Shown piece by piece: positions 4,857 to 41,994 of a stretch of DNA of 64,000 bases (within the stretch, counting starts at the first letter, position 1; each line of letters starts with the position of its first letter). The position numbers and the translations under genes were made by a program. The notes beneath the pieces were generated by a model, which saw only the letters and a list, made by a program, of their open reading frames with translations, was not told the DNA's origin and did not search any database. Origin of the DNA: Sulfurifustis variabilis (GTDB lineage: Bacteria > Pseudomonadota > Gammaproteobacteria > Acidiferrobacterales > Sulfurifustaceae); NCBI RefSeq assembly GCF_002355415.1, contig NZ_AP014936.1, forward strand, positions 3,100,001 to 3,164,000, in the 5' to 3' direction.

Positions 4857-6017
4857 CTATGCCACGCGCCCCAGCGCCAGACGGCTCGGGAAGCCGCCGA
4901 AGCGCAGGAGCGTCCAAGCATCGTTCCAATCGACTCCTTTCGCGCCCGCAGGGATCGGCAGCGGCGGCAGGAACGTCTGGCTTCGGATGCCACACCGCTC
5001 CAGCCGCTCGCTCAGCCTCTTGGCCGCTTCCTCGCCGCGGCGCTTACCCCGATGCTCGCGATCGAGATCCGCCCAGATGAACAGCGTGCGAACGTCATCC
5101 GGCGGAACGAACGACTCGAGCAACGTGGCATTCAGCACCGACCATGTGACCATCCCACTGCCGGTACACACGGCAAGTGCGGTCTCGATGCCTTCGGCGA
5201 CCCCGAGCACACTCTCGGTCGGTTTCCCGAGCTTGATGCTCGCGCCGGTGACGGCCTTGCCGTTCGGCACGGGCATCATCTTCTTCGGGGTCTCCACCGG
5301 CGCCTTGCGCCCATCCACGGTGAGGTAGATGCGCTGCAGGGTCACCATCTCGCCCTTGGGGTCCGTGACTGCGGCCACGATCCCGGGGTAGTCCCCGATC
5401 ACCGTGCCCGCCTCGTCGCGGTACTCGAGCTGCGGATGAAACCGCAACGCATCGCCGAGATCGGTGACCTGCCGAAGCGGGATCCTGCGTCCTTGCAGGT
5501 AGCGCTGCGCCGGCACTGCCTTGTGGTGCAACAGCGATATGCTCTCGCTCCAGATCTTCGCGATCACGGCACACAGCCGTGCATCGGCGTCCGCGTCACG
5601 ATAGATGAGCGGTGCCAGAGGCAGATTCGCCGTGTTCGGTTGCTGCACCGTGGTCTGGCGTGCGGAATGACGCCGCTGCGTTTCGCGCTCGACCCCATCC
5701 CACGGCAGGAGCTTCAGCCACTCGGCAACGGCCGCGAGCGCCTCGGTAAAGCGCCAGTAGTTCACCCACATGAGCAGCCCCAGGCCGTTCGGGACCGGCC
5801 CGCAGGTGTTACAGATGCCACCACCGGTGTCGCGGTAGTCGCGGAAGAGACGGAAACCGTCCCTGCCGCCATGCACCGGGCACGGGACGTGCCGTCCCGG
5901 CCGCTCGAGCGCGAGCTCCAGTGCCGGCGCGAGATCGGTCAGGATCTCGTGCCAGCGCCCGGATGCTGCGCGCCGCACCTCGTCCGCACTGATTCGGCGG
6001 AGATGCTTCGTCGTCAT
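4857..6017 (-). CDS. Toprim primase with zinc-binding N-terminus
   Basis: The 386 aa product starts at ATG 6017, overlapping the upstream small gene by ATGA. The N-terminal part has a primase-type zinc site: CPVHGGRDGFR followed after about 20 residues by CNTC. The C-terminal half carries a Toprim fold: AEGIETALA (catalytic Glu), FIWADLDREHRG (DxD) and VDWNDAW. Such proteins lay RNA primers on single-stranded DNA; on a conjugative element this would help convert the transferred strand into a duplex in the recipient. There is no helicase domain. Confidence 0.8.
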   Translation of the reverse strand: MTTKHLRRISADEVRRAASGRWHEILTDLAPALELALERPGRHVPCPVHGGRDGFRLFRDYRDTGGGICNTCGPVPNGLGLLMWVNYWRFTEALAAVAEWLKLLPWDGVERETQRRHSARQTTVQQPNTANLPLAPLIYRDADADARLCAVIAKIWSESISLLHHKAVPAQRYLQGRRIPLRQVTDLGDALRFHPQLEYRDEAGTVIGDYPGIVAAVTDPKGEMVTLQRIYLTVDGRKAPVETPKKMMPVPNGKAVTGASIKLGKPTESVLGVAEGIETALAVCTGSGMVTWSVLNATLLESFVPPDDVRTLFIWADLDREHRGKRRGEEAAKRLSERLERCGIRSQTFLPPLPIPAGAKGVDWNDAWTLLRFGGFPSRLALGRVA

Positions 6018-6205
6018 ACACCCTCCTTCATCTCGTCTTCGTCTTCCTCGGACATCGGTTCGGCGGACACCGCCCAACCGAGCTCTTTTAGCGCCGCAAC
6101 GGCGGCATCCCCCGGTGAGCACGCCTCGACCGTGAGTGAATCGTTGGGATCGTGCTCGTTGCAGACCAAATACGTCTGCGGTTTGCCATCACGCGCTGCC
6201 ATCAT
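6014..6205 (-). CDS. Small acidic protein upstream of the primase (63 aa)
   Basis: The product is short with an acidic tail (SEEDEDEMKEG). It has no recognised family. It is first in the operon with the Toprim primase and overlaps that gene's start by ATGA, so the primase is probably translationally coupled to it. A ribosome site AAGGAGCA precedes the ATG, and a long structured leader of the repeated family described below lies upstream. Confidence 0.6.
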   Translation of the reverse strand: MMAARDGKPQTYLVCNEHDPNDSLTVEACSPGDAAVAALKELGWAVSAEPMSEEDEDEMKEGV

Positions 6206-6480: not shown

Positions 6481-8480
6481 TTACCCGCAGGCCCCGGTGG
6501 CGCCGCAGGCGGTACAGAAATCGCAGCCATCCTTGCGGATGACGGCGTAGTTCCCGCACTCGCCACAGCGCTTGCCGGGCGCCACCTCCATCGCCCCCAC
6601 TGAGCGGGCCTTGATGGGCACGACGTTGTCGGCGTCGTACTGCATCATGCCCGCCTCGATGAGCGGGTAGCCCTCCTCATCGAGAATGCCTAGCATCGCG
6701 TAGCGATGGATCAGGAGCCTCGCGATGTAGGCCACGGTCGATGGGTAGTTCCGCTGCTTGCTCGACCCCGGGGTGCGCGCGAGGAAATCCCCGCGCGGTT
6801 CCGCGTAGTCGAGCAACTGCCGCAGCTTCCCGCCGACCCAGGCCGGGTCAAGCACCCGCATGTCGTAGGAGAGACTCTTGCAGAGCCCGTCCAGGACCTT
6901 CGGGTACTCGCCCGACAGCCACAGCGAATACGGCCGCCGCTGGCCGTCCGGCATGAGCAGCTCCTTCACGCCGGCCACGAAGTCATCCCCCGTGGCCGGG
7001 TTCAGCACATCCACCACCCAGCTCATGGTCCCGTCGGGGCCGGTCTTCGGCTCCTTCGGGCTCATGAGCGCGTTCAGCACCGGCGTGTCGCCGATGTCAC
7101 CGAACGCGCCGAGCTCCGTGCAGCGGTACCACAGCAGCTGCGCGAAGCCCGACACCATGCTCGGCACCCGCTTCGGCTCGCCTTGCGGCGGCATCGCGAG
7201 CTCGAACCCGTCGTCGGCCGAGGCCTGTGCCAGCGACTCGAGCTTGCGCCGGAGCCAGCCGCGGTCGTTGGACCGCATGTCCATCGACAGCGACTTCGCG
7301 AGCGCCCCGAGGCCTCGCGGCTGCTCCGCACCGTTCACCCACACCTCGAACGGATGGTTGCGTCCATTCTCGACGTGCCCGATGAACACGGCGAATTTGT
7401 ATCCTCGCGGGTGATCCACCACGTAGCACCAGGCCGGGTTGCCCGATGGCAGCACGGGGCGCTTGCGCCAGCGCAGGCTTGCGAGAGCCGGCGCCGGCAC
7501 CGACTTCAGCTCGATCCGGCGGTCGGGGTCCGACTCGTCGAACTCGGGCGCCGTTTCGGGCGCCTTCGCCTCCGCTGGCTTGGGCTCGACCGACAACACC
7601 GATCCACGCACCTCGCTCGGGCGGTGCGTCGCCAAGCCCTTCACGCCGAACTTCCAGGCCTCGAGATAGAGATCCTCGAAATCCTCGTACGGACAGCACG
7701 CCGGCACGTTCACCGTCTTGGAGATGCTCGTGTCGACGTACGGCGCCACCGTCGCGACCATCGCGAGATGATCCCTCGCGCTGATCTCCAGCGCCGACAC
7801 GAAGCTTCCCGGCAGCCTGGCCGTGTCACCGCCGCCTTCCCGGTACAGCCGGTAGGCGTGGTCCTCGACCGTGTACTCCTTGACGCTGCCGTCGGGCTCG
7901 CGCTTCTTGCGGGTGTACACCCACGCGAACGCCGGCTCGATGCCGTTGCTCGCGTTGTCCGCGAACGCCAGCGAGATCGTGCCGGTCGGCGCAATGCTCA
8001 ACAGATGGCTGTTGCGGATGCCGTGCTGGAGAATGCCTTCACGGATCTCCGCGGGCAGGCGCTTCGCGAACCCGGACTCGAGATACTTCTCCGGATCGAT
8101 CCGCGCCGGCACGCCCTTCTCCTTCCCCAATTCGATCGAGGCCCGGTAGGCCTGATCGCGCAGCGACTGCGCAACGCTCGCCGCAAACTCACGCCCCTCG
8201 TCCGAGTCGTACCGCAACCCCAGCATGACGAGCGCGTCACCGAGCCCGGTGAACCCGAGACCGACGCGGCGCTTGCTCTTGGCCTCGTCTTTCTGCTGCG
8301 GCAGCGGCCAGTACGTTACATCGAGCACGTTGTCGAGCATACGGACCGCCACCGGCACCAGCCGGCAAAACGCCTCGCGGTCGAACGAAGCCCCCGCAGA
8401 GAAGGGCGCACGCACGAACCTCGTCAGGTCGATGCTGCCCAGGCAGCAGCAACCGTAGTCAGGCAACGGCTGTTCGGCAC
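6481..8480 (-). CDS. nrdJ: nrdJ exon 2: B12-dependent class II ribonucleotide reductase, C-terminal part
   Basis: This exon encodes the C-terminal two thirds of NrdJ. It opens with the rest of the radical cysteine codon (GT), then AEQPLPDYGCCCLGSID, and includes the finger-loop region SHLLSIAPTGTIS. The later part has a repeated TSCPD-like domain (YKFAVFIGHVENGRNHPFEV and a second copy) and ends with a cysteine cluster (CGECG, CDFCTACG) as in other NrdJ proteins. No credible start codon exists at its 5' end (only TTG 8466 in frame, with TAA just upstream), so it is translated only from spliced RNA. Joined to exon 1 the product is 950 aa. The enzyme makes deoxyribonucleotides using adenosylcobalamin. 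Confidence 0.9.
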
Positions 8481-8768
8481 CATGCTGTTACTTTCACCCA
8501 GGTGACTGGGCTACGGACCGCCTTGCGGCGGCGGGGAACACGCTTCGGCGTTCCCTCTGCCGTTTCTTTGCCGACGTCGCCTGTGTCCCAAGCGGCGCCA
8601 GCGCGTTATCCGGCAGCTCAGACTGTTGCATCGCCCCTCGCGGGGCGCCCAACCGCTCAGTCGTTGACGGTCCCTCTCGGGTTCCGCAGCGTAGCCCGCG
8701 TCCGGGCGTCCGCCTCGATCAGGTCGGGTTGTCCACGCCGGATTGCGCCGGCGGGCCGCATGTTGCAT
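8481..8768 (-). ncRNA. Group I self-splicing intron in nrdJ (288 nt, no ORF)
   Basis: The insert splits the reading frame, with stops on both sides. Precise removal restores AAT-CCG-T|GT-GCC-GAA, that is NPCAEQ. The 5' exon ends in U (8769) and the intron ends in G (8481), as group I introns require. P1 is visible: exon CCGU plus intron AUG pair with CAUGCGG (8762-8756), giving a U.G wobble at the splice site and a 3-nt CAA loop. Core strands are recognisable: GUCAACGACUGAGCGG (R-like, 8653-8669) and GAUGCAACAGUCUGAGC (S-like, 8616-8632), with GACU/AGUC forming P7. A GCAA-capped stem (8519-8534) and CACCUGGGUG near the 3' end fit P9 elements. There is no homing endonuclease gene. Confidence 0.88.
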
Positions 8769-9621
8769 ACGGATTCGTTGCCTCTATCGTCTCGCAGTAC
8801 CAGAGGTTGTTCTCGCTGTTCATCCGGTCAACGAACAACACCCCGGGCTCGCTGTGGTCGTAGGTGTTTTTCATCACCTTTTCCCACAGCTCGCGCGCGC
8901 GTATCTTGCGATACACCCACTTGCCGTCCTCGCGGCGATGCACGCCGGACTCGATCAACTGGTCCGACGGCTCGGCCGTATGCACCAGCTCCCACTCCTG
9001 GTCGGCCTCGACGGCGCGCATGAACGCATCCGTCACGCCGATCGAGACGTTGAAGTTGGTCAACCTCCCCCCGGCGCTCTTGGCCGTGACGAAATCCAGG
9101 ATGTCCGGGTGGTCGCAGCGCAGCACCGCCATCTGGGCGCCGCGCCGGGCGCCGGCACTTTCGACCGTCCGGCACATGGCGTTGAACAGATCCATGAAGT
9201 CGAGCGGTCCGGAGGCGGTCGAGCGGGTACGGTTCACGCGCGCGCCGCTCGGGCGCAGGCGCGAGAAGTCGTAACCCACCCCACCGCCGCGGCGCATGGT
9301 CTCTGCCGCCTTGGCGAGCGCGCCCATGATGGACGGCTTGCCGTTTTGCGTGTCCGGCTCCGACATCGAATCCCCGATCGGCTGCACGAAGCAGTTGATC
9401 AGGGTCGCCTCGAGGCCGGCGCCAGCGGCGGACATGATGCGGCCGGCTGGGATGAAGCCCGAGCCCATCGCATCGAAGAAGCGCGTTTCCCAAAGCCGGG
9501 GGTCGCGTTCCACGGATGCGAGCGCCCGGGCGACACGCCGGAAAACGTCCGCATGACTCTGCTCGCCGTCCTTCGCGTACTTCTCGCGCAGCACGACGAG
9601 CGAGATCTCTTGGTCACTCAT
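8769..9621 (-). CDS. nrdJ: nrdJ exon 1: B12-dependent class II ribonucleotide reductase, N-terminal part
   Basis: This exon has 284 codons plus one base, starting at ATG 9621 behind AGGAGG. It encodes the substrate-site half: IPAGRIMSAAGAG, LINCFVQPIGDSM (a cysteine of the redox pair), MRRGGGVGYDFSRLRP and NVSIGVTDAFM, ending EATNP before the radical cysteine, codon 285. In ribonucleotide reductases the N-P-C-x-E stretch carries the thiyl-radical Cys and partner Asn and Glu. If the intron stays in, translation ends 14 codons later and the protein is inactive. The gene sits between a primase operon and small unknown genes in the element's DNA metabolism block. Confidence 0.9.
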
Positions 9622-28671: not shown

Positions 28672-31281
28672 CTACCGTAGCTGCTGCCCGGCCTCGATTC
28701 GGGCCCCTGTCGTATCGAGCCCGTCGATGCGCTGAACCGCCCGCGTCTGAGCGTCCGGGCGGTTGCCGTCGATGTTCAGGAAGTTTCCCGAGCCCGTGAC
28801 GCGGTCGAGAGTCAGGTTGCCCGCGGTCGGCAGTTTGCCGGCGAGATTCAGAATCCCGATCCACTCATCGAGATTGACGGTGCTCCAGTCCACCAGTCCG
28901 ATCTGGTCCAGTGACAGGCCGTTGCACGACGGGTTCTGCGCACTACCCCAAGTCATCGCGAGCTGTGGCCGTACCTGTGCCTGGATGATGCGCGACAGAG
29001 GCGAGCTGAAGCAGCAGTAGCTTTCGCGTTTCTCCACGCAGCTTCCGAGAAGCTCGCTCGCGCAGTACGACCCCACGTGGGTGCAGAGCTTGAGCTCGCG
29101 TTTCGCACCGAGCTCGAACTCTCGTTCCTCGCACTCCCAGATGAGATTGATCACCAGGATCACGATCGTGTAGATCATGTACGCGGTCGCGATCCATTGC
29201 AGCGCCGCCCCCACCGATTCGTTGAGCACGACGCTGCCGCCTGCGTCCGTGAAGAGCGCGTTGGCCGCGTCCGTCCCGAACAGCTGGTTCACCCAGTCGT
29301 AGGCGGCCTGCATCATCTGCTGCTTGAACTGCTCGAGCGAGAAGCTCGCCGCCTGCTCGCTGGCCGCGGCCGTGGTCGAGCCGGAGAGATTGTTCCAGGC
29401 GCTGGCGAACCAGTCCTTGACCGACGACCAGCTGTTCACGACCGGGTCGCGCAGCGTCTCCCACGCGCCACGCAGGGGGCTCGCGCTCAGCCAGTCGGCG
29501 GCTGTGTCGAAGGCCCCGACGTCGTTCAGCTTGAAGATCAGATTGATGTACTCTGCGAGCGACACGCCGTCCGGCGTCTTGCAGCAGTCCACCACCCCGC
29601 CCACGGCCTTCTTGCACTGGTAGGCCTCGCCGGCGAACACCGTGCAGGTGTTGACTTCGTAGTGGCCCCCGCCCTGGCTCGCCTGCGCGCAGCTCGAGTC
29701 CATGGACATGAACTGCGCCGTGTTGAGCGCGGCGACCGCGCGCGCGAAATCAGGGTTCTGTTCGGCCGGCTGCGTGACGCAGTCGTTTCCCATGCAGCGG
29801 ATCGGGCCGACGCAATCGTAGGTTGTGCCAGTGCGCTCGGTCGGCACCGTAGTGGTCACGCCGCAGTCCCAAGTCTCCTCGTAGACGTAGCAGGAGCCGG
29901 ATGCGCCCTGCGCCCCCTGCAGGCAGCGGGAGGAGATGAACCCGCAGTTCGGGTTCGTTTCGTACTGCGCGCAACTGTTCGGGTTGTCGCCGGTGTTCTG
30001 CGGGCACTGGAGATTTCCGCTCGCGTCGGTGTAGCACGTGAGCCCGCCCTGGTTGAAGCCGCAGTTCGCCTGCACCTCGGCCTGCAAGCAGCCGTTGGGT
30101 ATGCCCTGGACCGGCGCTGGCGGCGGCTCGAGCTGCGTCCCGCAGAGCGTCACGCCGTTGACGTCCGCGCAATCGCTGTTGTTTTGGGTGCATTGCAAGG
30201 TGCCGGTGCAGAAGCCGTCCTGGACCGCCTGGAGGAGGTCCGGACATTGCGGCGACGACCATTGCCAGCTGTCGCTTGCCTTCCGCCATAGCCGGACCTG
30301 CTGCTGGATGCCGGAGTAGTACCACGCCCATCCGCCCACGTCGGTGAGCTTGATGCGGGCGATGAGCCCGTTGGCGCAGCTCGGTTCCTGCAGGACGTTC
30401 CAGGTGAAGGAAGCGTCGTACGGACCCGCGAACGGCCAGTCCCAAGTTCCCAGCGTCTGGTAGGTGTAGGGCGCGCCCGATCCGCAAATGGCGTCGTAGT
30501 TCAGGGTCGGAGTGACGTCGCCGTAGGGGACGGCCCCGGGATCAGACCCCGACGGGTCGAGCGTCACGCTGCCGGTCTTGAAGTCCGCGACGAGCACCGC
30601 ATCGTGCGGGAAGTACACCCCCGCTCGGAGCGTCACGAGGTACTGGTCCACGTCGATTTGATGCGAGAGCGTGCACAACTGCGGGGCCTGGTAGAGCCGC
30701 TCGCAGGTGCGGTAGTCGGGCACGCGCGTGGTGATGCTTCCGGGGACGGTCGTGGTGGTGGCCGTGCAGTCGGAGAACTCCGGAGCCAGCGTGGCGAGAT
30801 TGTTGAGGGTGTCGTCGGTCTGCACCCACACCGGGTCGCTGCGCATGTCAGGGATCGAGAGCAGGCGGCTGTCGATGATGGTGCGATAGGCCTCGCCCGG
30901 GTACGACGGCTGCGTCTCGAGGATCGCCTGCGTGTCAGTGCCGAGCGTCTGCATCGCGGCATCGTTGCCATAGGTGCTCGTGTAGGTGCTGAAGTCCCCG
31001 GTCGCGCCGGGGAACAGCTCGCTGGCGGGGATCGACTGGGGCGCGGCGCCGTTCGGGTACAGCGTGATGTTGCCCTGGCTGTCGGCGGTGGCGATGTCGG
31101 GCGACGGCACGAACGCCTGCCCGGCGCTCTGGCCATGGGCGGCGGCGTCACTGATCGGATCGGCGAGGTGTTGGGCGAGCGCGGTAGTCGCGGGCACCCA
31201 GTAGACGGCGGCCGAGAGCAGGAACGCAAGCGGGCGCGCGAGCCAGGGGCCGCGCAGGAACGACATCAGTCCGTGCTCCAT
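28672..31281 (-). CDS. traN: TraN mating-pair stabilisation protein
   Basis: The 869 aa product is exported (signal peptide to about residue 36, TTALA-QHL) and very rich in cysteine, as F-type TraN outer-membrane proteins are; clusters such as CGFNQGGLTCYTDASGNLQC and CSTPD-like turns fill 340-560. Later segments carry VVDCCKTPDGVSLAEYI and SRIIQAQVRPQL, typical of the SXT/IncC type. TraN recognises the recipient surface. It is the last gene of the tra operon here. Confidence 0.88.
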   Translation of the reverse strand: MEHGLMSFLRGPWLARPLAFLLSAAVYWVPATTALAQHLADPISDAAAHGQSAGQAFVPSPDIATADSQGNITLYPNGAAPQSIPASELFPGATGDFSTYTSTYGNDAAMQTLGTDTQAILETQPSYPGEAYRTIIDSRLLSIPDMRSDPVWVQTDDTLNNLATLAPEFSDCTATTTTVPGSITTRVPDYRTCERLYQAPQLCTLSHQIDVDQYLVTLRAGVYFPHDAVLVADFKTGSVTLDPSGSDPGAVPYGDVTPTLNYDAICGSGAPYTYQTLGTWDWPFAGPYDASFTWNVLQEPSCANGLIARIKLTDVGGWAWYYSGIQQQVRLWRKASDSWQWSSPQCPDLLQAVQDGFCTGTLQCTQNNSDCADVNGVTLCGTQLEPPPAPVQGIPNGCLQAEVQANCGFNQGGLTCYTDASGNLQCPQNTGDNPNSCAQYETNPNCGFISSRCLQGAQGASGSCYVYEETWDCGVTTTVPTERTGTTYDCVGPIRCMGNDCVTQPAEQNPDFARAVAALNTAQFMSMDSSCAQASQGGGHYEVNTCTVFAGEAYQCKKAVGGVVDCCKTPDGVSLAEYINLIFKLNDVGAFDTAADWLSASPLRGAWETLRDPVVNSWSSVKDWFASAWNNLSGSTTAAASEQAASFSLEQFKQQMMQAAYDWVNQLFGTDAANALFTDAGGSVVLNESVGAALQWIATAYMIYTIVILVINLIWECEEREFELGAKRELKLCTHVGSYCASELLGSCVEKRESYCCFSSPLSRIIQAQVRPQLAMTWGSAQNPSCNGLSLDQIGLVDWSTVNLDEWIGILNLAGKLPTAGNLTLDRVTGSGNFLNIDGNRPDAQTRAVQRIDGLDTTGARIEAGQQLR

Positions 31282-31290
31282 GGCTCGCCC

Positions 31291-32406
31291 CTAGAACGTG
31301 GCGCAGCAGTCGTGCCAGCGCCACAGGACGTAGATCGCGTCCTCGCCCACCCCCGGTATCACGCGCCACTCGCCCCATATAAAGGTGGTCTGTCCGATCG
31401 GGTGGCTGCCCGCGGTCGTGCGGCTGCGGGTTTCGGTGGTGGTGTTCCCCGCGGCGTCCGTGGCCTCGGCCGTGTAGGTGAACGAGTCGCCGGCCTCGGG
31501 GACCGGGAAGAACATCGACATGCGGTACTGGGACTTCGGGAACATCGGCTCGATGCGGCCGCGACAGAGGGCGTCGTCGCCGAGCGTCCGCCAGGCGAGC
31601 CCACGGCGGTGCAGGCCGGCGACCGCGCGCGTCGCGAGCAGGCTCGTGTTCTCGGGCATGGAGCCGGCCGCGAAGTCGATCCCGGAGATCGGATAGATCG
31701 TCCCCCACGACCCCGCACACCACCACAGCGACTCGATCGGCCGGCCGACCGCGGCGGCGGCCGCATCGGCGGCGCAGGCCGCGATCGCGAGCGGATTGGC
31801 GACGGCGGCCGACTCGGGGTTGACGAAAAAGGCGATCAGCTCGTCGCTCCAGCTCGGGTCGAGCTCGGACATGTAGGCGAGATCGAGGTCCATGTAGGCG
31901 TCGGGGTTGCAGCGCTCCTCGACGAACAGGTCGAGCATCACAACGAGCGGGAAGGTGTAGTAGTGGAAGTGGTAGAACCCGGTGTCGCCCGCGTCCCAGT
32001 CGCCCTCGCCCGACGTCCCCTGCTGGCGCCAGTCGCTGAGCGGCAGCTTGATGCCACCCAAGGTCGCGGAGCAGCCGGGGGCACGCACGAGCTCGATGAG
32101 CTTCGCGGGCTCCCACATCGACACGATGAATCCGGGCTGCGGCACGCCGAGCGCGTCGTCGCACACGCAGAGCGAACCCGAGGCCGCGCCGCTCGGAACG
32201 TTTGACGGGTCGCCGCCCAGCGAGACACCGGCCACCCGGATCGGGAACATGCAGCTCCAGCAGAGGTCGGTGATCAGGCGGCCGGAGATCACGTTGCCGT
32301 CCGGGCAGGACGGGTCGTCGGTCATCGCCGGCATGTTCGCCGCCGCGAGGCAAGACCATATAGTAAGAATGAACAGCGCGATCGCTCTGGCGCACATGGT
32401 CGTCAC
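31291..32406 (-). CDS. traU: TraU conjugative pilus assembly protein
   Basis: The 371 aa product has a signal peptide (LFILTIWSCLAAA) and the TraU landmarks GRLITDLCWSCMFPIRVAG, CVCDDALGVPQPGF and FLVNP-like FFVNPESAAVANPLAIAACA. GTG 32406 overlaps the traW stop (GTGA); an ATG lies at 32397. TraU is periplasmic and needed for DNA transfer and pilus assembly. Confidence 0.9.
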   Translation of the reverse strand: MTTMCARAIALFILTIWSCLAAANMPAMTDDPSCPDGNVISGRLITDLCWSCMFPIRVAGVSLGGDPSNVPSGAASGSLCVCDDALGVPQPGFIVSMWEPAKLIELVRAPGCSATLGGIKLPLSDWRQQGTSGEGDWDAGDTGFYHFHYYTFPLVVMLDLFVEERCNPDAYMDLDLAYMSELDPSWSDELIAFFVNPESAAVANPLAIAACAADAAAAAVGRPIESLWWCAGSWGTIYPISGIDFAAGSMPENTSLLATRAVAGLHRRGLAWRTLGDDALCRGRIEPMFPKSQYRMSMFFPVPEAGDSFTYTAEATDAAGNTTTETRSRTTAGSHPIGQTTFIWGEWRVIPGVGEDAIYVLWRWHDCCATF

Positions 32407-33614
32407 TCCCCGGCCGGCGGCGGGATCTCGCGAACGACGATGTCCCTGCCCTCGGCGTCAATCAGCGCGGGCACGCGTTCGATGTGGAAGCGCGCGCGGA
32501 TCGGCTCGTTCAGCAGGTAGACCGGCGCGCGGAAGCCGTCCTGCATCTGCTTGAACCCGTCCCAACCAGCCGCACGGTCGAGCCCCGAGGCGATCAACAC
32601 CAGACGGCGGTCGCGGTAGCGCGCCGCGAGCTCGCGCGCGAGCGCGACCTGCTCCGGCCGCGACGCGTCGAACACCAGCAGTCGTTCGTGGAACGGCATG
32701 AGGTCGAGCGGGTTGATGCGGCTCCCCGCCGGGGCGATCACGTTCCCGCGGGCGTTCTTGATGTCGGCGGTCACCATCAAGCTCGGATCGAAGCGCCGGC
32801 TGCGCGGCTCGGTGGCCTGCGGAAGCTCGAGATACCGGAGCTTGCCCCAGTAGCGTTCGGCGGCCCGCTGCTGGGAAGCGGTCAGGTCCAGCGACGCGAG
32901 CCGTTGCTTCAGCACCTCGATCAGGTTGGGCTCGGTCGCAGTCACGGTCGGGCCGATGGCTCCGAGGTCGCCGCGCGCGCCGGCACGCACCCGGGCGAGC
33001 ATGTGGCGGATGCCATAGGTGCCACGGGCCTGCGCGATCGGCTCGCCACCCGCATAGACCGCGATCGCCGGCACCTCGTCGGTGCCGAGCCGCTCGAAGC
33101 GCGGCGGGTCGATCGTCACGGCGGGCACCGGGTCGAGACCGGCCAAGAGCGCGTGCAGGCGCTTGATGGCGTCGCGGAATCGCTGGCCCTCCGGGATGCC
33201 GCGGAAGATCATCACGGCGTTCGGGTACGAGGACACTTCGGCCGCGATCTCGCGCAGCGCCTCCTCGCCCAGCGCCCAGGAGACCAGGATCTCGACGCGG
33301 TAACCCGACGCGGTGGAGGCAGCCCCGCTCGCTTCGCCGGCGGGATCGACGCCGAGCATCTCGGCGGCGTCGCCCGTGCGCGCGGAGCCCTCGATTCTCG
33401 CGGCGTCGCGGGCGATGGACTCGACGCCTTCGCGCTGCGCGGGGGTCAACGGCGCACCTTCCAGCCAGGCCGGGTACGGTGCTTGTTCCGCCTGTTTCTC
33501 GATACGCTGAGCCTGTTCGACGATGGCATCGATGCCATCGAGCACGGCGTCGGACGCGGACACGCCGGCGGAGGCGATGAGCAGCGTTGCGGCTAGCGTA
33601 GCGGCGCGCGGCAT
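32403..33614 (-). CDS. traW: TrbC-TraW fusion protein
   Basis: The 403 aa product has a signal peptide (TLLIASAGVSA). Residues ~105-250 match F-type TrbC (YRVEILVSWALGEEALREIA, AIAVYAGGEPIAQARG) and residues ~280-403 match TraW (YWGKLRYLELPQA, NARGNVIAPAGSRINPLDL). In F plasmid these are separate interacting periplasmic proteins; SXT-type elements have the fused form. Confidence 0.85.
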   Translation of the reverse strand: MPRAATLAATLLIASAGVSASDAVLDGIDAIVEQAQRIEKQAEQAPYPAWLEGAPLTPAQREGVESIARDAARIEGSARTGDAAEMLGVDPAGEASGAASTASGYRVEILVSWALGEEALREIAAEVSSYPNAVMIFRGIPEGQRFRDAIKRLHALLAGLDPVPAVTIDPPRFERLGTDEVPAIAVYAGGEPIAQARGTYGIRHMLARVRAGARGDLGAIGPTVTATEPNLIEVLKQRLASLDLTASQQRAAERYWGKLRYLELPQATEPRSRRFDPSLMVTADIKNARGNVIAPAGSRINPLDLMPFHERLLVFDASRPEQVALARELAARYRDRRLVLIASGLDRAAGWDGFKQMQDGFRAPVYLLNEPIRARFHIERVPALIDAEGRDIVVREIPPPAGE

Positions 33615-33622
33615 CGCGCATC

Positions 33623-34153
33623 CTAAAGAAGCTTCATGGCGCGACCCACGATCTGGTCGGCCGCCACGTACCCCCAGTAGCGCCCGTCGTAGGAGTCGTG
33701 CGAGCGCCCCATGAAGAAGTAGTGGCCGTCCGGCACGTGTTCGCTGCGCGCGAAGGCCGAGGCCTGACGCCCTAGGGTGCGCGCCAGTGCGAGCCCCTCT
33801 CCCACGGCAGCGCCGTTGACGGTGGTCCGCTCCCGGGTCACCTCGACCTCATCGCCCGGCAGGCCGGCGACCTCCTTGGCGATCAGCGTGCCGTCGGTGA
33901 AGAACGTGTGTCCTCCGATCTTCACGACGATGCCGCGCGCCGCGAACGCGTAGATCCCGCCGCGTTTCGGCGCGCGGTCTCCGAGGTCGACCAGGAACAC
34001 CCGCCAGCCGGGCAGGCAGGTCGAGGCCTGGGTGGCGATGCCGATTCGGTAGTGCGTGCGGAACCAGGCCGTCGCGCCGAGCAGCGCGACCGTGATCAGC
34101 GCCGCCTTGATGAGAAACCGCCTGCGGCTAGCGAACCAGTTCCGCGGGGACAT
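33623..34153 (-). CDS. TrhF/TraF-type S26 signal peptidase
   Basis: The 176 aa product has an N-terminal membrane anchor (LIKAALITVALLGATAWF), the catalytic serine in TQASTCLPGW and the lysine in AKEVAGLPGDEVEV, plus the FMGRSHDSYDGRYWG box of conjugative S26 peptidases. It probably processes pilin or other tra proteins. It overlaps trbI by 26 bp. Confidence 0.85.
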   Translation of the reverse strand: MSPRNWFASRRRFLIKAALITVALLGATAWFRTHYRIGIATQASTCLPGWRVFLVDLGDRAPKRGGIYAFAARGIVVKIGGHTFFTDGTLIAKEVAGLPGDEVEVTRERTTVNGAAVGEGLALARTLGRQASAFARSEHVPDGHYFFMGRSHDSYDGRYWGYVAADQIVGRAMKLL

Positions 34154-34457
34154 AGTTCGCTTCCGGGGCGCCGAGCACCGCCTGTCCGTCCAGGACGAGG
34201 TAGCCGGCGTCCGTGAGCTTTTTCACCGCCTCGCGCACGCGCGCCATGCGGTGGTTGACGGTCTGCGGCGCGCTGTCGTCCTTGGGAAGATCGGCGACCA
34301 CCTGGCCGAAATCGACCACCGCGATCGGCGGCGGCGCGCTCGCGGGCTCGAAGCGCTTCAGCGCGTAGTGCGCGCCGGTGGCAGCGATGGCCCCCGCCAC
34401 CGCACCGGCGATCGCCGCCGCGCGCCAGACGCGCCCGGCTTCAAGCGGCGCGGCCAC
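34128..34457 (-). CDS. trbI: TrbI-like (F-type) conjugation protein
   Basis: The 109 aa product has one membrane span (AAIAGAVAGAIAATGAHYAL) and IAVVDFGQVVADLPKDDSAP, resembling F-type TrbI, which influences pilus retraction. It overlaps both traC and the peptidase gene. Assignment rests on position and the VDFGQVV motif. Confidence 0.65.
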   Translation of the reverse strand: MAAPLEAGRVWRAAAIAGAVAGAIAATGAHYALKRFEPASAPPPIAVVDFGQVVADLPKDDSAPQTVNHRMARVREAVKKLTDAGYLVLDGQAVLGAPEANYVPAELVR

Positions 34458-36903
34458 GCGCCTGCTCCCGCTGCTTGAGGATGTCGCGGATCGCCTCGGC
34501 GAGCGTGAGCCCCCGGCTCATCCGCTCGTGGATCGCGTGGCGGTCCTCGGGGTGCGTCGAGTACAGCAGTCGGCGGAAGGGCTCGATCACGAGGTAGGCG
34601 ACCCCCATGCCGTTCGGCGTGATGACGAACGCCTGCGAATAGCGGCCGGGCGCGGTGTGGATCTCTTTCATCAGCTCGTAGGCGCCGTCGGAGACCGGGA
34701 GACGCCGGTCCTTCTTGATCTCGTCGATCGCGGAGGCCTGCTGCTTCAAGAGGATCTTGGTCGCCGAGTTCTCGGTGATCGCGAGCCCGACCGGGCTCGA
34801 GTACAGGTCGTTGATGCCCTGCGAGATGAACACCCCGGCGGCGTTCATCTTGCGGAACCGGCGCCAGCCCGTCTCGAGGAAGCGGGTCACCGCCTCGCCC
34901 GCGTTCTTGAGGATGTCCCAGCCCTCGTCGCAGAGCACCATGCGGTAGCGGTTGTCGCCGCTGCGCGCCGAGGCGACGAAGATGTTGTACTGGATCTGGT
35001 AGATGAGCTGCAGGAGCACGACCTGCTGCAGGTGCGGACGGCTCTTCAGCTCCTCGAGCTCGATGACCGTGAAGTTGTCCTGGAAGGTGACGTTGTTCTC
35101 GCCAACGAAGTAGCGGCCGTACTCGCCCCGCGAGGTAAAGGCGTAGAGCTGGTGACCGATGTCCTTGACGCGCTGGTCCGGTTCAGCCTTGCAGCGCTCG
35201 GCGATGTCGTCGACCTGCATCGCCCGCCCCTTCTCGTCCCAGATCTCGCGCATCACGCGCTTGAGCGAGGCGGTCTGGAAGTCGCTGAGGGGCTGGGTCG
35301 GCGCCGCCATCGCCGCGACGATCCCGACCAGCATGTCCGACTCCTCGCTGTAGTCGACGACGAGCGGGAACGGGTTCAGGCAGACGTTGGTGTTCTCCCC
35401 GAAGTGGACGAACGCGCCGCCGTGGCGCTCGGCGCTGTTCTTGTACGACTTGCCGACGTCAATCACCCAGATCTGGGCGTTCACCGACAGGAGCGACGTG
35501 CAGAGGTCGTTCGCGAAGTTGGACTTGCCGGCGCCGCTCTCCGCGCAGATCACGGCGTTGTAGTTGGTGCTCGAATCGAACAGGTTGAAGGACACCGGCT
35601 GACCTTGGCGCGAGATGAGGCTCATCACCGGCGTGCCGGTGCCGGTCCAGTCGCCGAAGATCGGCAGCATCGGGATGACGTGGCGGGTGGCGAAGGTCTT
35701 GTAGCGGAACAGGTCGCCCACCGCGCGCCGGTCGGCCCCGAGGGGCAGGTTGTTGATGAAGAGCGGCAGCGACACGAAATCGTCCGCCATGAGGTGGAAG
35801 CCGAGCTCGCCCCAGTAGGAGATCGTGTTCGCGACGGCGGCGGTGGCGGCGTCCTCGTCGGGCGCGAACAAGGCGATGCCGAGGTACATGCGGCACGGCC
35901 GGTCGCCGTCGTCGAGCGCCTGGAAGAGCACGTCGAAGCCCTTTTTCTTCAGGCCGAGCATGGGCTCGAACTTAAGCAGCGGGCCGTAAGCCTGGTTGGT
36001 CACCCAGGTGCGCTTGGTACTGAGCATCGCCTTGGAGTGCTGGGGGTCGGGGAAAAACAGGGTGGCCGTGATCAGCACGTTCTCGAACACGCCGCGCGCC
36101 CCGGTGCGCGGCTCGCAGAGATAGGCGACGGCCTGCCCGAAGGAGACGCCGTCCGGATAGCGCTTGACCGAAAGCGTCCGCACCCGCGTCGAGCCGAGCC
36201 ACACGCCCTGGCGGTCGCGCCGGATCTCGTTGTCCCAGTCGATCACCTGCTCGCGCAGCGGCTTGTCGGCATCGGCCGAGACCGGGCCGCGGCGCCAGGA
36301 GGCGTTCGGGCCATGGTTGAACAGCGTCGAGAGCGTGTGGACGTAGCCGTCGACCGTGAGCTCGCGCGGCGCGAGCCCCACGGTCTCGAGGGCCTGCCGG
36401 ATGTCGACGCGCAGGGCGCTGCACGCGGCGACCTCCTTCTCGCTCGGGGTGGCGGCGGTAAGCGGCAGCTTGACGGTGACGATCACCCGGATGTGGCGGA
36501 GGCGCAGCCGCATGCCGTCGATGATCGGCTGCTGCGCGCCGCCGGCGATGAACTGGGCGCGCTGCTCGGCCGAGGCGCGCAGATCCGGGTCGCGCTGCCC
36601 GATCCGCAGATCCCGGAAATGCGTGACGAAGTCGCCGATGTCCGGTCCGGCCCAGAGCGCGATCGAGACGAGCGTGTCGGCCGGCCACTCGCGGTTGAGC
36701 AGGACTTTCAGGCGCTCGGCGACGCTGTCGTCGGCGCCCGGCAGTGGGCGGCACACGAACCCGAAGCCGAGCGCGGCGTCCTCGTCGGTGTTGGCGACGC
36801 CGTCGAACCTCGACGGCACGCAGTAGAAGAGATGCGTCTCGTCGCTGTACGACACCGGCGACAGCATGCGCGTCGCGCGCTCGTACTGGATGAGAGTTGT
36901 CAT
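34441..36903 (-). CDS. traC: TraC type IV secretion ATPase
   Basis: The 820 aa product is a VirB4-type ATPase. Walker A is ESGAGKSNFAND near residue 456 and Walker B is RMVLCDEGWDIL. N-terminal features ETHLFYCVPSRFDGVANTDE and LGFGFVCRPLPGADD are typical of F-type TraC. It powers pilus assembly at the inner membrane. ATG 36903. Confidence 0.92.
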   Translation of the reverse strand: MTTLIQYERATRMLSPVSYSDETHLFYCVPSRFDGVANTDEDAALGFGFVCRPLPGADDSVAERLKVLLNREWPADTLVSIALWAGPDIGDFVTHFRDLRIGQRDPDLRASAEQRAQFIAGGAQQPIIDGMRLRLRHIRVIVTVKLPLTAATPSEKEVAACSALRVDIRQALETVGLAPRELTVDGYVHTLSTLFNHGPNASWRRGPVSADADKPLREQVIDWDNEIRRDRQGVWLGSTRVRTLSVKRYPDGVSFGQAVAYLCEPRTGARGVFENVLITATLFFPDPQHSKAMLSTKRTWVTNQAYGPLLKFEPMLGLKKKGFDVLFQALDDGDRPCRMYLGIALFAPDEDAATAAVANTISYWGELGFHLMADDFVSLPLFINNLPLGADRRAVGDLFRYKTFATRHVIPMLPIFGDWTGTGTPVMSLISRQGQPVSFNLFDSSTNYNAVICAESGAGKSNFANDLCTSLLSVNAQIWVIDVGKSYKNSAERHGGAFVHFGENTNVCLNPFPLVVDYSEESDMLVGIVAAMAAPTQPLSDFQTASLKRVMREIWDEKGRAMQVDDIAERCKAEPDQRVKDIGHQLYAFTSRGEYGRYFVGENNVTFQDNFTVIELEELKSRPHLQQVVLLQLIYQIQYNIFVASARSGDNRYRMVLCDEGWDILKNAGEAVTRFLETGWRRFRKMNAAGVFISQGINDLYSSPVGLAITENSATKILLKQQASAIDEIKKDRRLPVSDGAYELMKEIHTAPGRYSQAFVITPNGMGVAYLVIEPFRRLLYSTHPEDRHAIHERMSRGLTLAEAIRDILKQREQARGRAA

Positions 36904-36933
36904 GGTCCGTGTCCCGGGCAGCAGGCGCCGCGG

Positions 36934-37782
36934 CTACTTCTTGGCGACGCCGGCACCGACCCGCCTTTCACCCGCAGTCCTCGAACCCGTGTCCCCGCCG
37001 TCCCGCGCAGGATGGGTCCGATCGGCGACGAGCCAGCCGGCCCAATCCGCGGGCAGGCCACGGCTCACCATGCTGTCGGCGCGGATGGTGTACGGCACGC
37101 CGTGGATGCCGAGGAGTTGAGCGGTCACCATCGCCTTCTGGATCGGCTTGAGATCGCAGGGCTTCTGCTGCTCGAGTGGCTTTCCGTAGTCCTCGCTCAT
37201 CAGGGCGTTGAGCGCAGCCTTACGATCCTTGGCGCAGCCGAGCTCGCGCACCAGGCGCTGCGACTCCGGGCCGAGCACCGGGATCGCGATGAAATCGAAC
37301 GCGTACCGCTTGGCGAGCTCAGGTTTGTCCGTGACCTGCTTCATGAGCTTCGCGCACCACGGGCACTTCGGGTCGGCGAAGACCGTGACGCGCTCCTTGC
37401 CGGTTCCGTAAGTGAGCGGCCCGAGCTCCGCCACCGCGATGCCCATCCGCTCGAGATTGACGTGGGTGACCGACTCGCGCACCTCGTCGATGGACTTGAG
37501 CGGCTTGCGCTCCCAGGCGTCGAACAGCGTGCCACGCAGGACGTAGCGGCCGCTGTCGGAGATGTAGAGCAGCTCGCCGTTGCTCACCACCGCCTTGAGC
37601 GCGCCGATCGGCATCGCGACGATCGATTCGATCCTCGGAGAGGCGGCAGCCGGATCGGTCACCTGAGAAGACGCCGCCGGCATCGCCGGCCCGGCGGCCC
37701 CCGTGTCCGCGGCGCTGACCGCCGCCGGCGCGGTGGCCGCGAGCAAGATCGCACCGAGACGCTTCGCGCGCCCGTTTCGCAT
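36934..37782 (-). CDS. dsbC: DsbC-like disulfide isomerase of the tra operon
   Basis: The 282 aa product starts at ATG 37782, overlapping the traA stop (TGATG). After a signal peptide (LLAATAPAAVSA) it has the DsbC dimerisation region (LLYISDSGRYVLRGTLFDAW) and a thioredoxin fold with CPWC in FADPKCPWCAKLM. It would help fold the cysteine-rich TraN and TraU in the periplasm. SXT has dsbC in the same place. Confidence 0.88.
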   Translation of the reverse strand: MRNGRAKRLGAILLAATAPAAVSAADTGAAGPAMPAASSQVTDPAAASPRIESIVAMPIGALKAVVSNGELLYISDSGRYVLRGTLFDAWERKPLKSIDEVRESVTHVNLERMGIAVAELGPLTYGTGKERVTVFADPKCPWCAKLMKQVTDKPELAKRYAFDFIAIPVLGPESQRLVRELGCAKDRKAALNALMSEDYGKPLEQQKPCDLKPIQKAMVTAQLLGIHGVPYTIRADSMVSRGLPADWAGWLVADRTHPARDGGDTGSRTAGERRVGAGVAKK

Positions 37783-38102
37783 CACAGCACCGGCAGGGTG
37801 GCGGTGAAGATCGAGTTGATCACGGTCGGCGCGTTGTAGAGGCCGATGCCGGCGCCGATGCCGACGGCGAAGGCCATCAGCGACTGGCGCGCGATGCCGG
37901 CCACGATGCCGACCAGGATCAGGGCGCCGGCGATGATGCGGCCGAGGGCGCCCTGCGACCAGTCGGTCAGCATCGTCCACACCGGGTCGAAGGCGCCGCC
38001 GCCGGTGCCGGCGAGCGCGGCCTCGGGGAGCGTGGTCGCGGCGATCGCGACGAGCGCCGTCAATACCATAAGAACATGTTGCTTGCGGTTGTTGCCCATC
38101 AT
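37782..38102 (-). CDS. traA: TraA propilin
   Basis: The 106 aa product has a long leader with a hydrophobic stretch (VLMVLTALVAIAATTLPEAA) likely cleaved near ALA-GTGGG, then two membrane spans (IIAGALILVGIVAGIA and SLMAFAVGIGAGIGL), the layout of F-type pilin. ATG 38102 with CGGAG eight bases upstream; an ATG follows at once. It is followed by dsbC. Confidence 0.85.
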   Translation of the reverse strand: MMGNNRKQHVLMVLTALVAIAATTLPEAALAGTGGGAFDPVWTMLTDWSQGALGRIIAGALILVGIVAGIARQSLMAFAVGIGAGIGLYNAPTVINSIFTATLPVL

Positions 38103-38118
38103 GATGGTTACTCCGGAG

Positions 38119-38763
38119 TTAGCGTGTTGGGGTGCCGCTCGTCGCGGCGGGTTTCGTGCCGGATGCGGCTGGCACGTTCGTGGCCGCCGCCGGGCTGCTC
38201 GCGGTGGTGCTCTTGGCGCCCGACGGACGTGTCGCTGGCTGGACGACCGGTTGCATCGTTGGTCCGGTCGGTCCCGACTGCAGCGGCGTGATCTCCCGAG
38301 CGCGGGTGCGCGCGGTTTTGCCGATCGTCCAGCGACGCGGCTCGATCTCGGTGTAGATGAGCTTGGTGAGGTGCAGATCCGAGTCCTCCGCCTCCCAGGG
38401 GGCGACCCAGATGCGCATCACGCGCGACGGCGTGCGCAGCGGCAGGGCGCCGTCGGTGATCTCCGGCACCATCCCCGGCAGCGGCTTGGGTGCGGCGCTG
38501 GCGGGTCCCTGCTGCTCCTGTTGCTCGCGCTTCTCGGGGTTGCCGGTCACCGGCCCGTCGGTGTGTTTCGAGGCCTCGTAGACCTCGGAAGCCGACAGGC
38601 ACGAGACCCCCTCGGGTATGCCACTGCACGTGAACTCCGACTTGCCGATCGCGCAGCCGGTGAGTGCGAGAACGCCCATGAGTATTTGCACGTAATGCAT
38701 GGGTCGGGATGCTAGGTTGCGCGACGCGACCGTGCGCAATCGATAGATGGCGGTTTCGAGCAC
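38119..38763 (-). CDS. traV: TraV outer-membrane lipoprotein
   Basis: A lipobox VLALTGC is followed by AIGKSEFTCSGIPEGVSCLS, the cysteine pair typical of TraV. The C-terminal half includes RTPSRVMRIWVAPWEAEDSD and a Pro/Ala/Thr-rich tail. The start is GTG 38763 with GGGGG upstream; ATG 38700 (MHYVQILMGVLALTGC) gives a more usual signal peptide and may be the true start. TraV with TraK and TraB forms the envelope-spanning core complex. Confidence 0.85.
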   Translation of the reverse strand: MLETAIYRLRTVASRNLASRPMHYVQILMGVLALTGCAIGKSEFTCSGIPEGVSCLSASEVYEASKHTDGPVTGNPEKREQQEQQGPASAAPKPLPGMVPEITDGALPLRTPSRVMRIWVAPWEAEDSDLHLTKLIYTEIEPRRWTIGKTARTRAREITPLQSGPTGPTMQPVVQPATRPSGAKSTTASSPAAATNVPAASGTKPAATSGTPTR

Positions 38764-38794
38764 TTAGTCCCCCGGATCTGTTATCGGACCGCCG

Positions 38795-39991
38795 CTACTC
38801 GTCGCGCAGGCGCATGCGCAGCGGCCCGGTCAGGATGAAGTCGATCTGGCGGCCGCTGTCGATCTCGAGCACCGGTTGGATCGCATCGGTGAGCTTCATG
38901 TAGTACTCGGCGAGGCGCTCGAAGCTCTTGCCCGCCCCGCCGTAGGCGGCGGCGCGGACTGCGTCGCTCGAGTAGTTCTGCTGGTATTGCACCGACTGCG
39001 CCGGCGTCGTGGCGATGACGGGGACGGGCTGGTAGCCGAAAACCTTGGACATGCCCTCGAGGAACCCGGCGAGCGCGGCCCGCGCGATCACCGTGCCCGA
39101 ACGGCTGACCAGGCGACCGCGCAGCCCGTTCTTGCCGTCGCTGCCCGACATGAAGCCCTCGAGCTTGGTTTCGATCACCTTGCCGTCGGTGCGCACGCAC
39201 GACAGCGTCTCGCCGCGGCCGAAGACGCGCTCGGAGCTCAAGTCCCCGTAGGTGCCGACGATCATGAAGCACTCGCGCACGTCGGCGCGGAAGTCGTTCG
39301 GCAGGATGGCCTCCTTGTTGGCGCGCGCCATGATCGGAAACGGCTCGCGGCGCGCGGCCAGTCCGGTCGGCGCGTCGACGCCAGTAATGAGCACGGCCGA
39401 GAGGATGCTGCCGGCGGGGAGGTACACGTCGTAGTCGCGGCTGTCGCGTTCGGCGCCGGCCAGCCGGATCGCGTCGCCCGCCGCTGCGTCCTCGCCGATG
39501 ACGCGCACCTCGAAGCCACCCGCACCAGCCTCCCGCGTGGTGCGCGGCGGCCGGGGATAATCGGCGAGCGGGGTCTGCGCGAACGGATTCGGCGTCGCGG
39601 CGGCGGGTCTGGCGCCGGCCGGCGTGGTCGCCGGGCCACGCTCGGCGGCCTCGCGCAGTCGCTTCATCTGATCGGCGATCGCATCGGTGGTGCTCTTGCG
39701 GGCGTCCCCGAGCTCTCGTTCCAGCCGCTCGATCTTGTGTTTGGCCTCCTCGTTGCCGCGCTGCAGGAGCTGGATCTGCGCGCTCAGGGAGTCGAGCGAC
39801 ACCTTTCGGGTGTCCGTGTCGGTGAGGACATGGCGTACCGTCTCGCGCTCCTTGCGCTCCTGAGCGCGCTTCGAGCCCGGGTCGGCGGGCGCGACGACGT
39901 AGACGAGCGCCCCGAGCACCGTGACGGCCACGCCCACGGCGAGCCAGCGCTGGGTCTTGGGCGAGAACTGCCGCCAGCTGTCCTTGAGCAT
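38795..39991 (-). CDS. traB: TraB core channel protein (VirB10-like)
   Basis: The 398 aa product has one membrane span (WLAVGVAVTVLGALVYVVA), a coiled coil (about 60-100: AQIQLLQRGNEEAKHKIERL), a Pro-rich segment, and the TrbI/VirB10 domain with SILSAVLITGVDAPTG, FMIVGTYGDLSSERV and RASRSGTV-like RGRLVSRSGTVIARAAL. A GTG at 40000 overlaps the traK stop and may be the true start. Confidence 0.88.
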   Translation of the reverse strand: MLKDSWRQFSPKTQRWLAVGVAVTVLGALVYVVAPADPGSKRAQERKERETVRHVLTDTDTRKVSLDSLSAQIQLLQRGNEEAKHKIERLERELGDARKSTTDAIADQMKRLREAAERGPATTPAGARPAAATPNPFAQTPLADYPRPPRTTREAGAGGFEVRVIGEDAAAGDAIRLAGAERDSRDYDVYLPAGSILSAVLITGVDAPTGLAARREPFPIMARANKEAILPNDFRADVRECFMIVGTYGDLSSERVFGRGETLSCVRTDGKVIETKLEGFMSGSDGKNGLRGRLVSRSGTVIARAALAGFLEGMSKVFGYQPVPVIATTPAQSVQYQQNYSSDAVRAAAYGGAGKSFERLAEYYMKLTDAIQPVLEIDSGRQIDFILTGPLRMRLRDE

Positions 39992-39996
39992 TTGCT

Positions 39997-40971: not shown

Positions 40972-41615
40972 CGCGCGGCCTCCCTGGCGTCAGCGGCCGC
41001 CTCCGCCGTCGCGGCGGGGCTCGTGGTCTTCTCCAGACGCGCGAGGTTTTCGAGCGTGCGCGGCTGGCCGCGGTAGGTTTCGAGGTGCGTGACGTACGGC
41101 TGGTAGGCGCGCACCTTGACGATGAGCTCGTAGGTGCGCGCATCGCGGTCGTCGCGCCCCATCGGCCCGGAGACGATCGAGTTGCCGACGACGAACACCT
41201 TCTCGGTCTTCGGCTCGAAGATCACCTCGCGCGGCTCGAAGCGCATGGTCACGCGATCGAGCTTGATCTGCTCGACCTGGCGCGCGAGGGCGTTGACGAC
41301 GTCTTGGTAGACGCTCGGCGCGAGCAGCGGCGTGATGAGGCGCTTGAGGTCGTCGGCGTTGCCGGGGGTCACATTGCCGAGCAGTCCCGCCACCACGAGC
41401 GACCACGACTCCGCGAACGACTGGTCGGCGCGGTCGCGCGCGACCTTCATGGGCTGGGTGAGCTCAGGCGGCGTCAGTACCACCACCTCGCCGCGCGTGA
41501 AGGCCGCCAAGCCGACGACGACGTTGGAGGCGATCAGGCCGAAGATCACGTAGCGCTGCACGCGGTTCTCAAGGCGCATGCCGTCCCAGGTGGCAAAGAA
41601 CTTCCCCCAGTTCAT
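40968..41615 (-). CDS. traE: TraE inner-membrane assembly protein
   Basis: The 215 aa product has an N-terminal span (YVIFGLIASNVVVGLAAF) and TraE features: QSFAESWSLVVAGLLGNVTP, TMRFEPREVIFEPKTEKVFV. VirB8-like. The C-terminal Ala-rich segment follows EKTTSPAATA. Confidence 0.88.
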   Translation of the reverse strand: MNWGKFFATWDGMRLENRVQRYVIFGLIASNVVVGLAAFTRGEVVVLTPPELTQPMKVARDRADQSFAESWSLVVAGLLGNVTPGNADDLKRLITPLLAPSVYQDVVNALARQVEQIKLDRVTMRFEPREVIFEPKTEKVFVVGNSIVSGPMGRDDRDARTYELIVKVRAYQPYVTHLETYRGQPRTLENLARLEKTTSPAATAEAAADAREAAR

Positions 41616-41623
41616 GGCCGGCC

Positions 41624-41905: not shown

Positions 41906-41963
41906 GCGAACCTCCGAAGGTCTTGGCTCGCGTGACACTACCTGCGCTGCCGGGTGTCGATGC

Positions 41964-41994
41964 GGGGGATAGATGCGCTATTTGCGCGTTTACC
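41964..41994 (-). promoter_or_regulatory. Palindromic activator-box candidate upstream of traL
   Basis: The minus strand reads GGTAAACGCGCAAATAGCG then CATCTATCCCCC; it contains AAATAGCG, the core of FlhDC boxes, and resembles the sites at 21475 and 50052. It lies about 60 bp before the traL start. Confidence 0.5.

Follow-up and report, generated by a model that had tools for sequence, protein, structure and literature searches.

The window analyzed here, 64,000 nucleotides of the Sulfurifustis variabilis genome (NZ_AP014936.1, positions 3,100,001 to 3,164,000), carries on its minus strand an nrdJ gene for a class II ribonucleotide reductase (RNR), the frame of which is broken by an insert of 288 nt. 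An initial annotation had proposed that this insert is a group I intron splitting the codon of the radical cysteine, Cys285, after its first base. The coordinates proved exact: in silico deletion of the insert gave ...EATNP-C-AEQPLPDYG, thus regaining the NPCAEQ motif, and the position of the insert is confirmed to the base. We consider the insert to be a group I intron that very probably splices itself out; the predicted two-step reaction would join T to GT at Cys285.

With an RNR barrel and a cysteine within an NPC motif, the host gene has the features of a class II RNR (NrdJ). Cys285 aligned with residue 322 of Thermotoga maritima NrdJ (1xje; residue counted from the alignment), which we take to be the thiyl-radical cysteine, in agreement with the codon originally proposed. 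The barrel profile PF02867 matched exon 1 at positions 2-211 and exon 2 at positions 214-522, so that the domain seems to be complete, or almost so, across the junction. Exon 2 showed 57-59% identity over 99-100% of its length in three Pseudomonas plasmids. If left unspliced, the insert brings in-frame stops (two TGA and one TAA) within the family match. It is present as a single copy in the 3.96-Mb single-contig genome, and an assembly error would be a very unlikely origin because related inserts occur at the identical base in independent records.

Predicted structure and covariation

The RNA has a group I core with helices P3-P8, a P4-P6 domain and a P3-P7 pseudoknot (Table 1). P1 is formed by the exon sequence CCGU followed by AUG, a CAA loop and the guide strand CAUGCGG, with a U.G pair at the 5' splice site, and the transcript has a G at 8481. 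The U.G pair, the CAA loop (both in 8772-8756) and the 3' terminal G are thus as first described. The 3' boundary of the window intron was set by the reading frame; in the other loci, the terminal G was demanded by the splice-site script. The GCGG guide is present in 25 same-site loci, but the selecting pattern itself required GCGG. On an unscored visual reading, a P10 can be formed between GUG, the first three bases of exon 2, and CAU in the guide strand. P9.3 is not conserved in the alignment of the Rhodanobacter intron.

Both strands of P4, P5 and P9 change among three introns from plasmids or integrated conjugative elements, and the strands of P3 read CCCGACC/GGUUGGG, CCCGAUC/GAUUGGG and CCCUCUC/GAGAGGG in them. 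Over 43 distinct sequences, 95.8% of cells were paired, whereas 500 shuffles gave 69.4% (sd 0.8) and controls with a slid partner strand did not exceed 47.5%; 27 of 31 pairs presented double changes; this alignment was fitted to a model containing P3-P6 and P8, and its pairing figures are biased towards that model. For P3, double changes were found in six of seven pairs (99.7% of cells paired) in the model-fitted alignment and in five of seven in an unfitted MAFFT alignment of six sequences. The unfitted alignment gave 83.1% paired versus 65.3%, with the P7 columns misplaced and three of five never pairing. P7 lies outside the model as pairs, yet it was 95.5% paired. Of the 43 rows, 26 have G-C and 13 have A-U as the last pair of P7, and the penultimate pair of this helix is C-G instead of U-A in locus L071 (see below). 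Rows selected by the pattern GACTGAG/ACAGTC hold P7 by construction, the A-U rows not being among them, and rows with an endonuclease insert are partly misaligned at P7.

The covariance model R2 was trained on 29 introns, excluding the window and every bacterial or plasmid nrdJ intron; its training alignment was made with a model, R1, that had itself been trained with the window, and its E-values are approximate. Searched over 165,189 bases at E<=10, R2 gave five matches, which were all five intron-bearing bacterial and plasmid loci: Rhodanobacter denitrificans (115.5 bits), the window (99.4 bits, E 3.7e-21), Thioalkalivibrio (95.2 bits), L071 (84.7 bits) and L034 (79.8 bits). None of 10 intronless nrdJ loci matched at the same threshold. 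R2 also matched weakly in phages Twort (best E 3.9e-5) and SPbeta (7.8e-5), at group I introns called by the Rfam family RF00028, and gave no match in phage SPO1. The group I assignment of the initial annotation is therefore upheld by P3-P8 covariation and by the score of the window.

Introns at the same codon in bacteria, plasmids and phages

Introns splitting this codon were also found in two plasmids and two further bacterial genomes and, among viruses, in Roseobacter phage CRP-118 and 21 contigs. A DNA search of plasmids with a 361-base query yielded two records 66% identical over 91-94% of its length, namely Thioalkalivibrio sp. K90mix pTK9001 and a plasmid of Rhodanobacter denitrificans FW104-R5, as well as three further matches that were short. 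The introns of these two plasmids (293 and 267 nt, versus 288 nt) resemble that of the window in codon, phase and helices, but their NrdJ hosts belong to another subfamily and, unlike in the window, the split codon itself reads TAA or TAG. The gene tables of both plasmids, which exclude pseudogenes and RNA genes, list no gene across the intron. Taken with the covariation and with the score of the leave-out model R2, these 66%-identical inserts at the same codon of two independently sequenced plasmids indicate more than a chance resemblance.

A core pattern derived from the window intron and these two found 4 loci in 84,980 species genomes, plus 30 viral contigs. One locus, L034 (Rhodanobacter sp. 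67-28), lies at the nrdJ site with only its 3' side visible, and its contig ends within the intron. Model searches, run with stricter filters, added one locus among 371 relatives (L071, from another family of the same class, at the same codon), and among 398 genomes across the phylum (E<=1e-4) only the window's own genome matched. In a DNA search of 145 relatives (E<=10), the matches listed besides the window were short chance ones; this search overlooked a genuine relative in genome G144, later found by model. None of 10 plasmid nrdJ genes compared, out of 830 matching records, contained the intron. The sequence CCGTGT occupied the site in 4/4 intron-bearing bacterial or plasmid genes versus 2/10 intronless ones (Fisher p 0.015), a small sample that hints at a fit between guide and exon. 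Also, two Pseudomonas plasmid nrdJ genes (L023, L024) present frame changes away from the intron site, where no gene is listed.

A pattern based on P1 was found in 46 viral contigs; 20 of them had an R1 match, all 20 with an upstream frame ending in NP at the split codon, and the other 26, for which R1 gave no match, were dropped as chance. A control pattern changed by one base (AAC for AAT) was found in 19 contigs, of which none had an R2 match. The AAT was preset in the pattern and is no evidence; the contrast of 20/46 versus 0/19 is, R1 having been used for the former and R2 for the latter. A pattern combining the 3' motif with the exon was found in 12 contigs, including same-site introns in L076, L080 and L078; the remaining nine were rejected as chance. 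A protein search of the viral contigs with NrdJ exon 2 found nothing. The viral total is 21 contigs (20 and L078) plus CRP-118, with L094 and L124 identical over 850 nt and L087 differing from L097 at 1 of 189 positions.

Exon 1 matched RNR families of Pfam in 18 of the 22 phage loci: the B12-dependent RNR insertion domain in 15 (below the curated cut-off for L110, L117 and L103) and the RNR barrel in L084, L076 and L101. The four other exon 1 fragments (40-93 aa) had no Pfam match. Both splice sites were placed in 20 of the 25 same-site loci, the 3' site lacking for L107, L104, L094, L124 and L088. The split codon reads TAA or TAG in 20 of the 25; the window differs, its first stop lying 16 codons on. 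In CRP-118, the RNR is annotated as two genes, gp44 and gp45, flanking the intron. The CRP-118 paper reports a class II RNR in 9 of its 10 phages and does not use the word "intron" (PMC11092137).

Phage introns at this site (for instance, CRP-118, L080, L092, L105 and L119) share with the window the codon, the guide strand and the P3-P8 core. They differ in size, ten loci being 167-189 nt long without an open reading frame (ORF) and others 747-876 nt long with a GIY-YIG ORF, and many present GAGAGACU rather than GAACGACU before P7. Pfam placed a GIY-YIG ORF within the introns of L080, L103, L105, L119 and L124, and the P8 region houses the endonuclease ORF in phage relative L080. The intron of L101 contains a 134-aa Cys/His-rich ORF with no Pfam match.

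Some phage loci presented particular features. The 307-nt same-site intron of L078 (6886-7192) diverges in its core (28 bits with R2, no R1 match) and is perhaps a second lineage at this codon. In L104, the exon 1 frame is open over 40 codons only, though the contig continues. The phage nrdJ of L076 (1-5700) has LAGLIDADG domains in the exon 1 frame, perhaps an intein, and more interruptions downstream of the intron at the Cys codon. L080 contains a second group I intron (3839-4082; RF00028, 88.8 bits) away from this codon. L036, L053 and L035 each gave at least two core-model matches, 0.4-1.8 kb apart, the third in L035 being weak.

On a tree of 19 RNR proteins, seven intron rows require six label changes, at least three of which are forced by well-supported branches; the label is unclustered (342 of 500 shuffles as low), on a tree limited by long phage branches. 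The intron thus appears scattered at one fixed site, as for a homing element. A tree of the intron core (127 columns) placed 19 viral same-site rows together (support 0.88), joined L076 to introns from other loci (0.95) and grouped L107 with L128, an intron of a coat gene (0.91); the window, L071, L022, L021 and L034 were weakly placed. Because L076 and L107 fall with introns from other genes, introns probably entered this codon on more than one occasion. The L128 intron (MW202674.1, 2001-2170), a member of the same family, interrupts a P22-like coat protein gene in an uncultured podovirus; the annotation shows a hypothetical protein there, flanked by two coat-protein ORFs.

Predicted splicing and alternative explanations

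Splicing by the standard two-step group I pathway is indicated by the U.G pair in P1, the terminal G and the pseudoknot between P3 and P7. After transcription, the guide strand would pair with CCGU of the 5' exon. An exogenous GTP in P7 would attack at the U.G pair, just after its U; the exon thus released would then attack after the terminal G, ligating T to GT and so giving Cys285. We infer that the window copy very probably splices in vivo.

Three observations weigh against this interpretation. The unconstrained minimum-energy fold of the insert is not the group I fold (-149.7 kcal/mol, versus -145.1 kcal/mol for the group I helices without P7, a gap of 4.6 kcal/mol), and energy folding is no proof of a group I fold. 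Translation from exon 1 could extend 16 codons into the intron before the first stop, across P1, P2 and the 5' strand of P3, and might hinder splicing. Finally, Rfam gave no match to the window intron, at the gathering cut-off or at E<=10.

A splicing-dead or decaying intron, whose fold would still be recognizable in an nrdJ reduced to a pseudogene on the element, is favored by a GC-rich RNA with competing folds and by in-frame translation into P1-P3, and its loss of function would be allowed by two intact RNRs elsewhere in the genome. However, both exons keep an open frame (284 and 665 codons) and the RNR barrel is intact, the core helices and P7 pair in the window copy, and the boundaries still restore the codon exactly. 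We thus regard a dead intron as highly improbable.

Taken literally, the negative Rfam result is the outcome that the initial annotation had named as refuting it, yet it reflects the insensitivity of RF00028, R2 scoring the window at 99.4 bits. At the gathering level, RF00028 failed to recover the family intron from any of the 31 loci examined, its matches in L046 and L080 being other introns. Among 16 RF00028 matches in the control phages T4, Twort, SPO1 and SPbeta, five reached the cut-off and 11 fell below it (2/3 in T4, 6/9 in Twort, 1/1 in SPO1 with 25.6 bits, 2/3 in SPbeta). Rfam was dropped as a judge of membership after these controls showed RF00028 missing most matches; a miss therefore does not exclude group I membership. 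The absence of an Rfam match would also be expected of another element, such as a group II intron, an intein remnant, an insert derived from an insertion sequence, a recoding signal or an assembly error. Such an origin is hardly conceivable given the covariation, the R2 score and the marks of group I (terminal G and U.G in P1); moreover, the in-frame stops oppose an intein and independent homologues at the same base oppose an assembly error.

In the genome, two other RNR large subunits have open frames, intact NPC motifs and no intron. Total deoxynucleoside triphosphate (dNTP) supply therefore need not depend on splicing, and the dependence suggested in the initial annotation would hold at most for the NrdJ of the window. 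A related idea is that the intron is kept as a conditional switch, its splicing efficiency (GTP, translation, folding) setting NrdJ output. The interrupted codon is the one indispensable for the enzyme, and GTP is the cofactor of group I splicing. Also, the split codon is a stop in 20 of the 25 loci. A review associates in-frame stops after the upstream exon with ribosome stalling, which may help the intron fold, and ties such stops to better intron folding (PMC3984707). However, sporadic presence on the NrdJ tree fits a selfish homing element, the 10 compared plasmid genes are intronless and two other RNRs are at hand. A switch, which can be compatible with the group I intron favored here, thus seems unlikely.

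Mobility, genomic setting and significance

The window intron has no recognizable ORF, in line with the initial annotation: its longest frame (85 aa) had no Pfam match at E<=0.1, and 10 further ORFs of the window revealed no endonuclease family. The intron probably came from a phage or another conjugative element through homing driven by an endonuclease, its endonuclease gene having been lost or never carried. Because endonuclease-bearing relatives occupy the same codon, homing followed by endonuclease loss, or homing by means of another element's endonuclease, would be the simplest account. The insertion had been called unusual; it is less isolated than thought, class II reductases of phages repeatedly carrying an intron at this codon. 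A wider proposal makes the radical-cysteine codon of class II RNRs a common homing site for guide-fixed group I introns that pass between lytic phages, plasmids and integrated conjugative elements; on the conjugative elements, the ORF-less form would be kept because its GTP-dependent splicing gates B12-dependent dNTP synthesis during transfer. As a whole, we hold this proposal to be improbable.

Other group I introns of RNR genes occur in phages Twort, SPbeta and T4 and in Bacillus nrdE/nrdF, but their hosts are of class I or III, unlike nrdJ, and their likeness to R2 is weak. The RF00028 matches in T4, Twort, SPO1 and SPbeta mentioned above are genome positions without gene assignment. According to one study, the Twort introns lie near functionally important residues, and split nrdJ genes exist in two phages (PMC3653736). 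RNR inteins likewise sit at conserved, functional RNR positions (PMC8772380, PMC2814812); they are spliced as protein and need an open frame, whereas the window insert breaks it. Curation in RNRdb has yielded more than 100 introns of group I from RNR genes (PMC2795772), and the radical-cysteine site may therefore be recorded there. In the accessible portions of the openly licensed full-text literature, no description of a group I intron in the radical-cysteine codon of nrdJ was found. The kind of intron thus appears already known, its site and host range being what we did not find described.

As Rfam misses this family, nrdJ appears broken or as two genes at its catalytic codon, in CRP-118 and in the plasmids. 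Recognition of the intron turns apparently broken plasmid and phage reductases into probably working ones, and defines a recurrent intron site for B12-dependent reductases. It also provides a natural series at one codon (endonuclease-bearing, minimal with 167 nt, GC-rich without an ORF), suited to the study of group I intron movement between phages and conjugative elements.

The conjugative setting originally proposed was recovered, with F-type conjugation genes in the window (Table 1). In a Polaromonas plasmid, nrdJ also lies beside MoxR, DUF3150 and VWA genes.

Table 1. Coordinates of the predicted intron, its helices, the nrdJ exons and neighboring genes in the window
Feature	Position	Strand	Details
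Predicted group I intron	8481..8768	-	288 nt; splits nrdJ Cys285 codon as T/GT; terminal G at 8481
nrdJ exon 1	8769..9621	-	284 codons ending ATNP + T of Cys285; PF00317, N-part of PF02867
nrdJ exon 2	6481..8480	-	GT of Cys285, 665 further codons, stop; PF02867 positions 214-522
First in-frame stop (TGA) for ribosomes entering the unspliced intron from exon 1	8721-8719	-	
P1	8756..8772	-	5' strand 8772-8766 (exon CCGU + intron AUG); loop CAA; guide strand 8762-8756 (CAUGCGG)
P2 hairpin	8736..8753	-	8753-8748 / 8741-8736
P3	8648..8728	-	8728-8722 / 8654-8648, 7 pairs
P4	8714-8711 / 8691-8688	-	
P5	8707-8703 / 8698-8694	-	
P6	8686-8684 / 8670-8668	-	
P6a	8681-8679 / 8674-8672	-	
P7	8621..8662	-	8662-8658 (GACUG) / 8625-8621 (CAGUC); expected guanosine site; pseudoknot with P3
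P8	8633..8646	-	8646-8642 / 8637-8633
3' domain	8497..8616	-	P9 (8616-8611 / 8562-8557), P9.1, P9.2, P9.3
Primase/Toprim gene	4857..6122	-	adjoins nrdJ; Pfam
CobT/VWA	11218-13122		Pfam
DUF3150	13141-14106		Pfam
RadC	16661-17308		Pfam
YqaJ	17380-18393		Pfam
RecT	18393-19406		Pfam
F-type conjugation genes	28672..50018	-	Pfam
TraN	28672-31281	-	Pfam
TrbC_Ftype	32403-33614	-	Pfam
TraC	34441-36903	-	Pfam
TrbI	38795-41143	-	Pfam
TraI_2	47790-50018	-	Pfam

Elsewhere in the same genome, RF00028 at E<=10 lists two places other than the nrdJ insert. The first (L146, G000:C1:185476-185734) scores 53.7 bits, over the cut-off, near two ORFs named by eye, one RpoD-like and the other HNH-like, Cys/His-rich and 127 aa long. 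The second (L147, G000:C1:2512470-2512732; 37.6 bits, under the cut-off) adjoins SmpB-like and LAGLIDADG-like ORFs, also named by eye, and is perhaps an intron in a tmRNA gene; ARAGORN found no tmRNA there. In the window itself, a ThiF-like protein with a DUF6791 domain is encoded at 25593-26783, near the conjugation genes.
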